This document shows positions 28,356-37,673 of a DNA stretch of 42,202 nt, piece after piece. The stretch lies in assembly GCA_945860705.1 (NCBI GenBank), contig CAMART010000026.1:1-42202 (forward strand), given 5' to 3'. The stretch's first letter is position 1. The number at the start of each line of letters is the position of its first letter. The DNA is from Chitinophaga pinensis. GTDB lineage: Bacteria; Bacteroidota; Bacteroidia; Chitinophagales; CAMDFR01. The translations under genes were made by a program, and so were the position numbers. Under the pieces are notes generated by a model. It was not told the origin of the DNA and did no database searches. It was given only the letters and a program-made list of their open reading frames with translations.

Positions 28356-29000
28356 TTGAAAAATAAAATTCCATATAATTATATCTGTATAGAAGGCAAT
28401 ATAGGCGCGGGGAAAACAACTTTTGCGACAAAACTTGCGCAACAACTTGATGCCCGATTAATATTAGAGCAATTTGCAGACAATCCTTTTTTGCCAAAGT
28501 TTTATGACGATGCCGAACGATATGCTTTCCCTCTAGAATTGTCTTTCATGGCAGAAAGATATCGGCAACTAAAAAGCGAAGTAGAAGCTCAAAATCTATT
28601 TCAACCATTCACAGTGAGTGATTATGTTTTTTATAAATGCTTGATTTTTGCTTCAGTCAACTTGCAAGAAGATGAAGTAAAATTGTACAAAAGTTTATTT
28701 AATATCATCTATCAAAATCTACCAACGCCTGAATTAATTTTGTTTTTCAATTGTCCAACAGACAAACTTTTAGAGAATATAAAAAAACGCGGTAGAGACT
28801 ACGAACAACAAATACCAGCATCTTACTTAGATGCTGTGAACGAGATGTATTTTGAATTTTTCAAACACCAAGATAAAAGCCGTGTTTTGATACTGGATAC
28901 TAGTAAAATAGATTTTGTAGAAGACGATGCTACATATAACAAAATCTGTCAATTGCTTGAAAAGCAATACGAACCTGGATTACATTATGTAGAGTTGTAA
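28356..29000 (+). CDS. Deoxynucleoside kinase
   Basis: Phosphorylates deoxynucleosides in the salvage pathway. The P-loop GNIGAGKTT is at about residues 14-22. The ERYRQLK segment (about residue 70) matches the dNK ERY/DRS-type base-binding region, KKRGRDYEQQIP is the lid, and SYLDAVNEMYFEFF follows. The 214-residue length fits bacterial dCK/dGK-type enzymes. Base preference cannot be read from the sequence. The start is a TTG, since no in-frame ATG lies upstream of the P-loop and homologs begin with the same MKNKxPYxYI-type opening. A -7 box only five bases before the start suggests a leaderless or very short-leader mRNA. Confidence 0.92.
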   Translation: MKNKIPYNYICIEGNIGAGKTTFATKLAQQLDARLILEQFADNPFLPKFYDDAERYAFPLELSFMAERYRQLKSEVEAQNLFQPFTVSDYVFYKCLIFASVNLQEDEVKLYKSLFNIIYQNLPTPELILFFNCPTDKLLENIKKRGRDYEQQIPASYLDAVNEMYFEFFKHQDKSRVLILDTSKIDFVEDDATYNKICQLLEKQYEPGLHYVEL

Positions 29001-29334
29001 AAGTATATTATAAATTTACAATCTCAAAAATCAAAAACATTTTAAATGTTTATCTTGTATTTACAATGTATATGATAGTTTTTACTTAATCCTTACGACC
29101 TCGAAATAAACAAATAACAAAACAAAGGCTTTTTTGGCGTGGTCAAATACATTTTAAAAAAGTATGCTGTAAAAAAAGAACCAATAACGTACAAATTATC
29201 CTTCAGCATACATTTTTTTAAATGAAAAAAGACTGTAGATTTTGTATCTGTTTATTTCGCAGTCTTGATTTTTTGCTTCTTTTTTATTAAGAAAAAAGAA
29301 GTCGCCGAAGGCAAACAATTAAATAAAAATCTAG
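29001..29334. other. 334-base gene-free stretch with three consecutive hairpins
   Basis: No credible reading frame is present. Arms at 29156-29169 and 29204-29219 (AAAAAAGTATGCTG with CAGCATAC plus T7) pair around a 34-base loop. Arms at 29225-29235 and 29260-29266 (AAGACTG with CAGTCTT) enclose about 24 bases and are followed by T6. A compact 10-bp hairpin lies at 29276-29301. The right half looks like a dispersed intergenic repeat seen in this phylum, but that needs a genome-wide search. The bases 29001-29155 are plain AT-rich spacer. Confidence 0.6.
29276..29301 (-). terminator. Hairpin downstream of the DUF1801 gene
   Basis: CTTCTTTTTT-ATTAAG-AAAAAAGAAG is a perfect 10-bp stem with a six-base loop, 34 bases past the DUF1801 stop on the minus strand. 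It is mostly A-T, so termination strength is uncertain. Confidence 0.5.
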
Positions 29335-29679
29335 CTATTTTTCTATCAATTGACTTAAATAAAGAACTATTTGATGAATCACCTCATCATTCATTTCATG
29401 CACCTCCATTCTTCTTATAGTCTTTGCAGTGCCTTTCAATTGGCTATTGGTATCTACCAAAGATACGCCATCAAAAAAACCTAATTCTATATGCGCATGT
29501 GTAGATTTTATACAAAGAAAAGCTAGGTCTTTGTTTTGGTAAGTAAAAGTGATTCTACCATATTTTATAAGCTCTTCCATAGATGTATCATGAGCCAATA
29601 TCAATTCTCTGATAGCTAGAGCTAATTTCATTTTAGCATCTGGTAATTGAAGCAGAATATGTTGAATTTGTTTATTCAT
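29335..29679 (-). CDS. DUF1801 domain protein
   Basis: Small cytoplasmic protein of unknown biochemical role, of the YdhG/DUF1801 type, which has a frataxin-like fold in known structures. From the ATG at 29679 it has 114 residues. Characteristic stretches are LPDAKMKLALAIRELI, MEELIKYGRITFTYQNKDLAFLCI, HIELGFFDG, and a C-terminal helix after RRMEVHEMNDEVI. The reading frame is open 39 codons further upstream, but that part overlaps the divergent SDR start and is hydrophobic and unlike the family, so the internal Met is preferred. It is divergent from the second SDR gene. Confidence 0.85.
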   Translation of the reverse strand: MNKQIQHILLQLPDAKMKLALAIRELILAHDTSMEELIKYGRITFTYQNKDLAFLCIKSTHAHIELGFFDGVSLVDTNSQLKGTAKTIRRMEVHEMNDEVIHQIVLYLSQLIEK

Positions 29680-30532: not shown

Positions 30533-31498
30533 ATGAAAACATTTTATACGCTATCCATTTTATTGATTGTATCTATTACAAATCTGCATGCACAAAAACT
30601 TTATATCAATGTAGCAGGTGGATATTCTTTTTCAGGAGTTTTGCCTACCAAACATATTTTTGGTTTTAGAGCTACCAATAGCATAGAGCCAACTTCTGCA
30701 CAGATAGTCAATTTTGCCAATGTAGTAGATACAGGAATGAACGGCAAATCCTATAAAGAAATAAATAAAACATATGGCAACGGTGCTTATGCTGGCTTAT
30801 CGGTAGGTTATCAATTTAAAAACTGGATGTCAGCAGAGATCTCATTTGCTTACTTTCATAGCAATACGCTCAAATCTAGCAGTCTAGAAAATGGCTCTAG
30901 TCTTATAGGCAATCATGCACTCACAAAAATAGCTACCAATGCAAGAGGCATCAGTACCTTGATAGAACTCAAATTTACAGGCTATAAAGAAAACTGGAAA
31001 GTACTTCCTTATGCCAAAATAGGTGTATCTATTCCGCTGTGGGGCATCATCAATCATCAAATACATATAGATGCTCCCAACTCCGCACTAGGCAATACAT
31101 TTGTAGAAGCAAAGATATTATCTAAACCAACTTTCTCTATGGGTTTTGTAGGCTCACTTGGTGCTGAATACCAAGTGAAACCTTGGATGAAACTATTTGC
31201 TGAAATGAAAATACAAGCAATGGATATCCGCTCACACAAAGCCAGTGTACAAAGCTACGATATCAATAAAATAGAAAGCGATGGCACTACGAGCAATATA
31301 GTAAACATCAATACATTTCCAGATGTATACAGTAAAGAAATACTCTTTGTAAAGGAACTCGACAATAGCTCCAACAATGCCGACTATAATGCTAACTACG
31401 ACAAAACAAAACCAAAAGAAGTAGCAAGAATCAATGCACCATTTGACAATATGGGATTCTTTGTAGGTATAGGTTTTGTGCCAATATTTAAGAAATAA
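30533..31498 (+). CDS. Outer-membrane beta-barrel protein
   Basis: Predicted OmpA/OMP_b-brl-like barrel in the outer membrane. A 20-residue signal peptide ends in LHAQ (MKTFYTLSILLIVSITNLHA). The mature 300 residues show alternating amphipathic strands with aromatic ends: KLYINVAGGYSFSG, GAYAGLSVGYQFKNWMSAEI, LPYAKIGVSIPLWG, FSMGFVGSLGAEYQVKPWMK, and the final MGFFVGIGFVPIFKK. The barrel ends close to the C-terminus. It lies three bases after the SDR stop. No specific ligand or partner can be named. Confidence 0.85.
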   Translation: MKTFYTLSILLIVSITNLHAQKLYINVAGGYSFSGVLPTKHIFGFRATNSIEPTSAQIVNFANVVDTGMNGKSYKEINKTYGNGAYAGLSVGYQFKNWMSAEISFAYFHSNTLKSSSLENGSSLIGNHALTKIATNARGISTLIELKFTGYKENWKVLPYAKIGVSIPLWGIINHQIHIDAPNSALGNTFVEAKILSKPTFSMGFVGSLGAEYQVKPWMKLFAEMKIQAMDIRSHKASVQSYDINKIESDGTTSNIVNINTFPDVYSKEILFVKELDNSSNNADYNANYDKTKPKEVARINAPFDNMGFFVGIGFVPIFKK

Positions 31499-31543
31499 TA
31501 TATATATTTGAAAAAGTATAAGTGCAACAATAAAAGCTAAAAC

Positions 31544-31596
31544 TTGCGCCAATCTACCCAAAAATGATGTGATTGGCGCAACAGAGTTGCGCCAAT
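31544..31596. repeat. Three copies of a TTGCGCCAAT element, two of them inverted
   Basis: TTGCGCCAATC at 31544-31554, its exact reverse complement GATTGGCGCAA at 31571-31581, and TTGCGCCAAT again at 31587-31596. The first pair forms an 11-bp stem with a 16-base loop; the last pair forms a 10-bp stem with a five-base loop. The GC-rich units are unusual in this DNA and sit just before the broken HEPN gene. Confidence 0.85.
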
Positions 31597-31673
31597 ATAC
31601 AATTTAGCGGCAACCTAATACGGATACTATAAATATAAAACTAAAACACGATAAATAAACTGACAAAACTTTT

Positions 31674-32685
31674 ATGATTGGATTTTGGGCATATAATAAA
31701 CTTACAACTGACATCAAAAATCTAAGACAGATCTATGATTTTACCTATCATTTGTATTTACAAGAACATGAAATCATAAAAGAAAAACTTATCGAAAAAA
31801 GGGACAAAAGGTTGTAACAATTAACACGCCTATAGGAGCTATAAGCCACAGTTTAAATTCATTGTTCCATTATACAAAAAGCACTTATCCGAATACACTT
31901 AGGCAACTAATATTAATTAATCTTATAACTGTACTCGAAGTATATTTTACAAATGTGGTAAGAGAAATTGCTACTAGAGATTTAGAACCATTTAAACCGG
32001 ACAATGAGAAAGCTGATTATATGAGAAATCACTTGTTAAACTTTTCAACTATCAAAGGAATTGAAAATGACCTGATAGAAAAGGATATTAGAAAACTTAC
32101 AAGTGGCGGTCTTGAAGAAAGCCAAAAATTTTTCTAAAAAGATTCGGTATAGACTTTAAAAACTTAGGGATAGATTATAGCGGCCTTGAAGAAATTCATG
32201 AAAGAAGGCACTTATTCGTTCACAGGAACGGGATTTGTGATGGTCAATATGTAAGAAGTTATCCAGCTTTTGGCTTTAAACCAGGTGATCCTATTGTATT
32301 AGAACATCAATACATAATAAATGCTCTTGACAAGGTTCTTGAATTTGCAAATAAGATTAATCAACAATGTTTGACTAAATTCCCTAGCAGTAAAAGAAAA
32401 ATAATGAGTTTCAAAGGAGGTCGATCATATGTAAACGGGGATATAAAGATTTTGCTTGAATTTGAAACTATAAAAAATAATTTTGACGTACAGAGCGAAG
32501 TTTTAGATAAAAACCTAGGTAGAACAGCAAGCAAGGTTAGTGACTTCACTCTTCAACATATTGTTTTTGAAAAGAGATATCATCTCTATGTCTCAGCACC
32601 ACAAAAGGAGATCGGAATGTTAGTTGGTGTAATAAAACAGAATGAGAATATCTTGCTTCTTAATACAACTGAGATAGACTTTTAA
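31674..32685 (+). pseudogene. HEPN-domain protein gene disrupted by two single-base frameshifts
   Basis: Three reading-frame pieces join into one protein of about 337 residues. The first runs from ATG 31674 (MIGFWAYNKLTTDIKNLRQI) to the A6 run near 31796. The second continues as KGQKVVTINTPIGAISHSL through LRQLILINLITVLEVYF to SQKFF near 32136. The third continues as KRFGIDFKNLGIDYSGLEEI to the stop at 32685. The third piece contains ERRHLFVHRNG, an R-x4-H motif typical of HEPN RNases and HEPN antitoxin-system toxins. Each break is explained by one missing base in a homopolymer (A7 to A6, T6 to T5). Decay or sequencing error are both possible. Flanked by GC-rich palindromes. Confidence 0.78.
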
Positions 32686-32767: not shown

Positions 32768-32795
32768 CAAGCTGGCGCACGCGTGTCGCGTGTGA
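32768..32795. repeat. GC-rich palindromic element, copy A
   Basis: A sequence beginning AAGCTGGCGC contains the inverted repeat CACGCG-TGT-CGCGTG, extendable with one mismatch on each side. It is strikingly GC-rich inside AT-rich spacer between the broken HEPN gene and the 87-residue orphan gene. It resembles dispersed intergenic palindromes known in this phylum, but copy number cannot be tested here. Confidence 0.55.
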
Positions 32796-32920
32796 CTATC
32801 CAAAATAAATACCAAATCTCTGACTTACATTTTTTAGTCCAATATTAATCTAAAGATTTATTTTAGCAACTTTGTTATTGTGTGACTAGAACAAAACTTG
32901 GTACCCTATAAAAATCTAAA

Positions 32921-33184
32921 ATGAAAAAACTACTTCCAGATATAATTAAACGACTAGACATAGCAAAAGTTAAATATGAGGTTCACAATTTCGATTCTGG
33001 AGCAGTTATGGTCGACGTATTTATAAATGACAAATTCTACGTAATACAAATTTATGGTGATGAAATAGGTTTAAGTATAATTACAGAGGACACAATGCCT
33101 TTCGACATTATTCCAGATAAATCATATAAAAGCGTAAATGAATTTAATATTGACTTTGAAAAAATATTTAATTTAGAAGGATAA
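32921..33184 (+). CDS. Small protein of unknown function (87 residues)
   Basis: An 87-residue, rather acidic cytoplasmic protein with no signal peptide or membrane segment. It has an N-terminal helix (MKKLLPDIIKRLDIAKVKYE), strands such as GAVMVDVFINDKFYVIQIYG and IGLSIITED, then a helix ending in FEKIFNLEG. Alternating strand and helix spacing suggests a compact alpha/beta fold like many small immunity-type proteins, but nothing specific was recognised. The ATG follows an A-rich leader. It stands alone between two GC-rich repeat elements, which points to an accessory locus. It is probably real by codon use, with limited confidence. Confidence 0.6.
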   Translation: MKKLLPDIIKRLDIAKVKYEVHNFDSGAVMVDVFINDKFYVIQIYGDEIGLSIITEDTMPFDIIPDKSYKSVNEFNIDFEKIFNLEG

Positions 33185-36830: not shown

Positions 36831-37673
36831 CTATGGAAACTTAGGGAATTTCTTAAAATCTGGTTTGCGTTTTTCGAGAAATGCATTTCTACCTTCATTA
36901 GCTTCATCAGTCATATATGCAAGACGAGTAGCCTCCCCGGCAAACACCTGTTGTCCAACCAATCCATCATCAATTAAATTGAATGCAAACTTCAACATCT
37001 TGATAGCGGTAGGACTTTTTGTCAATATAACTTGTGCCCAATTAAAAGCAAAATCTTCTAGTTCTGTATGTGGTACCACCGCATTGATCATACCCATTTC
37101 AAATGCCTGTTGTGCTGAATATTCTTGTTCTAAAAAGAAAACTTCTCGAGCACGTTTCTGTCCTACTTGACGAGCCAAATAAGCTGAACCAAATCCTGCA
37201 TCAAAACTGGCTACATTTGCATCTGTTTGTTTGAATATAGCGTGTTCTTTGCTCGCAACAGTGAGGTCACAAACTACATGTAAGCTATGTCCACCTCCTA
37301 CTGCCCAACCCGGTACCACTGCTATCACTACTTTATTCATAAAACGGATTTGACGTTGCACATCTAATATATTAAATCTACTTACACCATCTTCGCCTTT
37401 ATATCCTCTAGCAGAGCGTACCCGTTGGTCTCCACCTGAACAAAATGCCCATATACCATCTTTTGGTGCTGGTCCTTCTGCAGATAATAATACCACACCT
37501 ATTTCTTGACTTTCGTGACAAGTTATCAATGCTTCTAATAACTCAGAAACAGTTTTTGGACGAAATGCATTTCTACATTCTGGTCTATTGAAGGCTATTC
37601 TAGCGACACCATCTGCATATTTAAAAGTAATATCTTCATATTCTTTTATTGTAGTCCACTTAATTTTGCTCAT
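36831..37673 (-). CDS. menB: 1,4-dihydroxy-2-naphthoyl-CoA synthase
   Basis: Closes the naphthoate ring from O-succinylbenzoyl-CoA in menaquinone synthesis. The crotonase fold shows FNRPECRNAFRPKTVSELLE, CSGGDQRVRSARGY, PGWAVGGGHSLHVVCDL and KQTDANVASFDAGFGSAYL, all characteristic of MenB. The C-terminal LEKRKPDFKKFPKFP is the family's usual end. At 280 residues it has the normal length. It overlaps the menD 3' end by 14 bases and is followed by a strong terminator, so menD-menB is one transcript. Other men genes are not in the window. Confidence 0.97.
   Translation of the reverse strand: MSKIKWTTIKEYEDITFKYADGVARIAFNRPECRNAFRPKTVSELLEALITCHESQEIGVVLLSAEGPAPKDGIWAFCSGGDQRVRSARGYKGEDGVSRFNILDVQRQIRFMNKVVIAVVPGWAVGGGHSLHVVCDLTVASKEHAIFKQTDANVASFDAGFGSAYLARQVGQKRAREVFFLEQEYSAQQAFEMGMINAVVPHTELEDFAFNWAQVILTKSPTAIKMLKFAFNLIDDGLVGQQVFAGEATRLAYMTDEANEGRNAFLEKRKPDFKKFPKFP

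Follow-up and report, generated by a model that had tools for sequence, protein, structure and literature searches.

Positions 31674–32685 of the stretch analyzed here – 42,202 nucleotides of a contig assigned to Chitinophaga pinensis, referred to below as the window – encode one protein that is split over three reading frames of the plus strand. We put the probability at about three in four that what remains here is a pseudogene, recently inactivated, of a standalone HEPN protein, the endoribonuclease activity of which is predicted from sequence. The fragments represent one gene of a known kind, which looks like an ordinary dead gene rather than a module out of the ordinary; as defence genes come and go, costly effectors can be expected to leave broken copies behind. 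Intact orthologs, two of which lie near TIR, SIR2 and restriction genes, point to a putative solitary HEPN family with a possible built-in ligand sensor.

The three pieces, the overlaps between their frames and the neighbouring features are listed in Table 1. Piece 1 closes with the stop codon at 31815–31817, the frame of piece 2 is open from the stop at 31769–31771 until that at 32135–32137, and the frame of piece 3 is open from the stop at 32113–32115 until that at 32683–32685. In this state, translation from the true start yields no more than a 47-residue peptide. The ERRHLFVHRNG motif highlighted in the sequence-only reading is present in the last part, and its RHLFVH (codons 32206–32223) satisfies the R-x4-6-H pattern of the HEPN superfamily. 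In the frame of piece 3, ATG, GTG and TTG codons occur only at 32371 and beyond, downstream of this motif, so none of these starts would give a HEPN active site without frame changes. The same reading had assigned the frame changes to two homopolymers, and both of the short overlaps do contain one. The T5 run is where it was expected, near 32130, while the A6 run lies about four bases to the right of the 31791–31796 first given for it.

Table 1. Features of the split HEPN gene and its surroundings in the window, and the intact orthologs
Feature	Position	Strand	Description
Piece 1	31674..31817	+	47 codons, ATG 31674 to TAA 31815; N-terminal helix
Piece 1/piece 2 frame overlap	31772..31817	+	first frame change must fall here; contains A6 31795–31800
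Piece 2	31787..32137	+	116 codons as taken here, then TAA 32135; first half of HEPN domain
Piece 2/piece 3 frame overlap	32116..32137	+	second frame change must fall here; contains T5 32129–32133
Piece 3	32137..32685	+	182 codons; second half of HEPN domain with R-x4-H, then C-terminal domain
Interspersed intergenic repeat	31484..31617		palindromes 31544–31596; ten further places in the genome, 76–88% alike
G+C-rich hairpin-like motif	32770..32790		found five times genome-wide with at most 3 mismatches, window included; reversed control 0
Interspersed repeat	32814..32896		one other full-length and one partial place in the genome
87-codon orphan ORF	32921..33184	+	235 bases downstream of HEPN gene
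L055			Saprospiraceae MAG; intact single-frame ortholog
L056			Confluentibacter sediminis; intact single-frame ortholog
L057			Flavobacteriaceae MAG; intact single-frame ortholog
L058			Dysgonomonas hofstadii; intact single-frame ortholog; copy in viral collection is L073

Comparison with related genomes, which had been proposed as a check, reveals intact single-frame orthologs in other Bacteroidota. Four of these (L055–L058; 333–334 aa) run in one frame across query residues 1–335; the read-through of the window gene is 41–44% identical to them over 330–332 residues, they are 63–82% identical to one another, and ATG 31674 aligns with the first Met in all four. Each piece by itself also matches all four, with best E-values of 1.3e-10 for piece 1 (L058), 5e-31 for piece 2 (L056, residues 40–155 of its open segment) and 1.9e-44 for piece 3 (L055), values that refer to a small database of the stop-to-stop segments of 26 related loci and are not comparable with whole-database E-values. 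The 26 loci include duplicates; L012, for example, is the same gene as L061. Because each piece is colinear with the same four intact genes, the pieces represent one gene, beyond chance, and the proposal of a single protein over three frames is borne out both by this order and by a profile score that rises on joining. The first join lies outside the PF18735 profile discussed below and is supported by the orthologs. A first scan of genome contigs with piece 3 alone as query found no relative; in a second scan 83 stretches matched a pattern and 18 of them encode a relative. Of these 18, 15 were aligned; L064 and L065, which nearly duplicate L063 and L061, and the weak L072 were left aside.

The assignment to a HEPN family holds when the frame-corrected protein is put to a profile search, since the read-through (with X at the joins) scores 29.7 bits against PF18735 (HEPN_RiboL-PSP) and just passes the Pfam cut-off of 28.4. 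The alignment is colinear over profile positions 23–189 of 191 and spans the second join, with piece 3 alone scoring 16.1 bits and piece 2 alone giving no match to this profile. L055, L056 and L057 score 17.3, 21.4 and 21.2 bits, all below the cut-off, and L058 has no PF18735 score at E ≤ 0.1, which places the window gene at the rim of the family; judged from sequence, its membership is borderline. The motif itself is better conserved than these scores: E172, H174, R176, R177, H178, V181 and H182 (numbered as in L055) do not vary among 15 relatives and are present in the window as well, giving E-x-H-x-R-R-H-L-x-V-H-R, in which the named residues are invariant in the 15 relatives and the last R nearly so. 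An L-PSP domain has no match in the read-through, and there is no second PF18735 match in the same genome at E ≤ 0.001. PADLOC models give no family at E ≤ 1 for the read-through and none at E ≤ 0.01 for L055, L056, L058 or the long relative L061. A sequence search of the PDB returned one row at chance level for the read-through (E 0.12), and a best value of 0.026 with a profile.

Structure models of the ortholog L055 (mean pLDDT 79.1 for the full protein and 78.8 for the HEPN part) are consistent with a helical HEPN fold followed by a separate C-terminal domain. Among the solved chains compared, the HEPN part is closest to YutE (1ylm; Z 9.4, rmsd 4.2, 132 residues), although values below about 13 for helical bundles, and below 8 generally, may reflect a common arrangement, and the 1ylm value falls in this range. 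The row after 1ylm is 3 Z lower, at 6.3, and Csm6 (6tug) stands at Z 5.9 amid unrelated rows. YutE 1ylm is listed as a HEPN-M structure in PMC3710099. Foldseek searches of the PDB with the whole model and with the HEPN part gave nothing at E ≤ 0.001, and known HEPN structures did not lead; a search of a viral library with the HEPN part likewise gave nothing at E ≤ 0.001, where the top match, at E 0.0027, was to a siphovirus protein that is uncharacterised. For the C-terminal part of the L055 model, the resemblance is to ferredoxin-like domains of the ACT/RAM type; 2nzc ranks first (Z 9.0, rmsd 2.3, 72 residues), and with many such domains close behind it only the general fold is indicated. By extension from this model, the C-terminal domain of piece 3 would have the same fold.

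Decay, phase variation and mis-sequencing had all been entertained for the two breaks, and the state of the rest of the window speaks for decay. The 42 other ORFs (38,436 nt), hand-picked from the ORF list, show no break by ORF tiling, intactness being judged by tiling and not by homology; the ORFs at both contig ends run off the edge. These ORFs carry 395 of 407 A/T runs of at least five, and two random indels on such runs would both fall in the HEPN gene with p = 0.0008, or both in any one gene with p = 0.03 (a post hoc value). The main rival to a young pseudogene is a sequencing or assembly error, in which the organism would have an unbroken gene and two homopolymers would be wrong in the record. 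It would account for a homopolymer inside both overlaps, for the lack of any other disabling change in some 334 codons, and for the retention of the catalytic motif and most conserved residues; but the A6 and T5 runs are short, the 42 other ORFs are unbroken by tiling over 395 like runs, and the sole gene struck is an accessory one. We consider such an error unlikely, and infer true decay.

Two further explanations would keep the gene functional in its present form, and both are far less probable than a read error. Recoding, by programmed –1 frameshifting or transcriptional slippage, would yield the full protein; the two frame changes are of the same sense, and homopolymers are the usual recoding sites. 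However, the strict X XXY YYZ heptamers in the overlaps (two in the first, where the scan covered 31774–31817, and one in the second) are none of them in the required frame, A6 and T5 are shorter than the runs known for transcriptional slippage, two successive events would multiply losses, and all four intact orthologs are single-frame. Programmed frameshifting was rejected on the lack of an in-frame slippery heptamer together with the intact orthologs, and recoding as a whole is very unlikely. A phase-variable gene switched by slipped-strand mispairing has a slightly smaller chance still: there are homopolymers at both breaks, but runs of 6 and 5 are ordinary in a window with 465 A/T runs of at least five, they are below the tract lengths known for phase variation, and both tracts would need to be on together. 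It was dismissed on tract length.

The pieces contain no extra stop codons beyond those that arise from the frame changes, so the decay must be young; with about 5–7% of single-base changes in the pieces creating a stop, we estimate that the number of unselected changes since the break is below roughly 60. Of 26 residues that do not vary in 15 relatives, the window copy lacks 5, more than any other of the 16 rows, with one position beside the second join dependent on the alignment. This is weak evidence of decay because L063, whose nearest relative is 34% identical, lost nearly as many (4 of 25 invariant residues). At residues invariant in 11 distant relatives the window keeps 22 of 35 and the four orthologs 26–27. 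A leave-one-out count with the four close orthologs (104 of 172 kept by the window, 104 of 107–112 by the others) was discarded as a decay test, the window protein being far more divergent.

The gene had been described as bracketed by palindromes. There is indeed a palindromic region on its left, within the repeat at 31484–31617, and on its right is a short G+C-rich hairpin-like motif, but these flanking elements belong to genome-wide repeats and not to the HEPN gene. The left repeat is about 120 nt with nested palindromes, and most of six aligned copies have a TATATTTG-like stretch, which we take to fit the Bacteroidota –7 consensus TAnnTTTG. The right motif, AGCTGGCGCACGCGTGTCGCG, reads as a small hairpin without a T run in a window of 31% G+C, and also occurs at L074, L076, L077 and L078. 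Another interspersed repeat, of about 220 nt, is at 29097–29315, between a gene ending at 29000 and one starting at 29335, and has eight long further copies (73–83% alike) and many short ones. Two genes lie upstream of the HEPN gene: one encodes a short-chain dehydrogenase (1.2e-51), the other probably an outer-membrane beta-barrel protein, for which OMP_b-brl gives 22.6 bits and so stays below its cut-off of 28.7.

The least probable of the readings considered is that the HEPN gene and the 87-residue ORF form a toxin–antitoxin pair. The sequence-only reading had raised such a two-gene module, and the ORF is on the same strand, 235 bases downstream; but repeats lie between the two genes, the ORF has no relative in 98 other genomes and no match at E ≤ 0.01 in the 26 loci that surround HEPN relatives, duplicates included, and by eye no small gene recurs beside the four intact orthologs. 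Nor does it match Pfam, PADLOC or NCBIfam at E ≤ 1. The module was abandoned on the absence of the ORF elsewhere and of a common ortholog neighbour.

The gene is distributed patchily. A search with piece 3 found no relative in 98 other genomes, including three of the same genus (84–93% complete), and among 394 other genomes sampled from the phylum, 7 have a relative of any kind. At 31.2%, the gene has the same G+C content as the window (30.7%), and composition therefore does not show transfer; it is the patchiness that suggests that the gene arrived by horizontal transfer. A comparison within the genus found no informative empty site: the longer flank DNA matches are on different contigs at 68–77% identity, one of the three same-genus genomes contains a single relative (41%) of the probable beta-barrel gene, and all three contain relatives of the gene at 36831. 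The read-through has no match in a phage collection and four weak records in a plasmid collection (23–28% identity over 32–52% of the query), and L055 has none in either at E ≤ 1e-3. Two scans of viral contigs each found one relative, in both cases L073.

HEPN relatives do occur in defence settings, as had been anticipated: two of the four intact orthologs have likely defence genes nearby. At L055 a ThsB-like TIR protein and a type IIG/ISP restriction enzyme are directly upstream of the HEPN gene; the three genes are arranged head-to-tail (L055:1447–6999), likely a defence island. At L058 a SIR2 protein, ThsA/DSR2-like, is two ORFs upstream, and the long, more distant relative L061 has the candidate defence protein PDC-S59 nearby. 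Comparison of two neighbours at L056 and one at L057 with Pfam gave no recognised defence gene; the upstream protein at L056 is presumably a tyrosine recombinase. No shared partner gene beside the four orthologs is visible by eye, and there is no nucleotidyltransferase among those of their neighbours put to Pfam.

Several known systems offer comparisons. The Ribo L-PSP-HEPN family (Pfam PF18735; Table 1 of PMC3710099) shares with the window gene the profile match of the read-through above cut-off and the conserved R-x4-6-H, but no L-PSP domain was matched in the window protein, the L055 model has an ACT/ferredoxin-like C-terminal domain, the window copy is broken and the intact orthologs score under the cut-off. 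According to the table of PMC10952713, PF18735 is listed in the defence systems PD-T4-2, PD-T4-5, PD-T7-3 and ApeA; it is this family listing by which they are likened to the window gene, which has no PADLOC match. PD-T4-5 gives Abi defence and is described in PMC9519451 as a plasmid-borne distant relative of AbiF/D. Tha, a HEPN RNase defence system of a Staphylococcus aureus prophage that is activated by a phage tail protein (PMC11087260), is of similar size (about 300 aa), likewise combines a HEPN RNase domain with R-x4-H and may work in a like manner, a comparison made from its published description; its HEPN domain is C-terminal (residues 184–296 of 301), whereas that of the window protein precedes a C-terminal domain. 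HEPN–MNT toxin–antitoxin systems and YutE-like HEPN-M proteins have the helical HEPN fold, which the window protein may share, 1ylm being the best match to the HEPN part of the L055 model among the chains compared, but the window gene has no adjoining nucleotidyltransferase among the two genes on each side (the downstream ORFs being of 87 and 178 aa).

The PF18735 defence systems, Tha and the defence neighbours together suggest a role for the intact form in abortive infection. That form is a single protein of 333–334 aa, with a predicted helical HEPN domain that carries the catalytic R-x4-H and, after it, the ACT/ferredoxin-like domain, a putative sensor or dimerisation module. The gene would act as a one-gene abortive-infection system that stays quiet until a phage-linked signal, received through the C-terminal domain, releases RNA cleavage and growth arrest; the RNase activity, the C-terminal sensing and the anti-phage role are all predicted. 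In the genome studied here, the gene would have been acquired by horizontal transfer and its frame then lost twice.

Most of the more distant relatives (L059–L061 and L063–L071, with L064 and L065 assigned through their near copies) are longer and have an extra C-terminal segment (LPxQPWxxxxHKxxAxxLG...) that is missing from L062 and the short branch. Judged by its sequence, this segment looks like a winged helix; L013 has a weak HTH_24 row at E 0.011, under the cut-off. It is possible, though on balance doubtful, that the intact relatives constitute a family of solitary HEPN effectors, so far undescribed, that occurs in Bacteroidota and beyond and has two branches, a short one (333–334 aa) that ends in a ligand-binding domain of ACT/RAM-like type and a long one (about 384–413 aa) with the winged-helix-like segment, in which one protein senses a small molecule and cuts RNA in phage infection, and that the window represents a lineage that discarded the system. 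No description of the HEPN plus ACT-like architecture was found in the accessible portions of the literature searched on PF18735 and the family names. Elsewhere among the related loci, two genes (L017:892–1980 and L018:1018–2100) encode fusions of a Schlafen AlbA_2 domain with a HEPN region that is a distant relative of the window protein, each lying behind an upstream ORF that is alike by eye.
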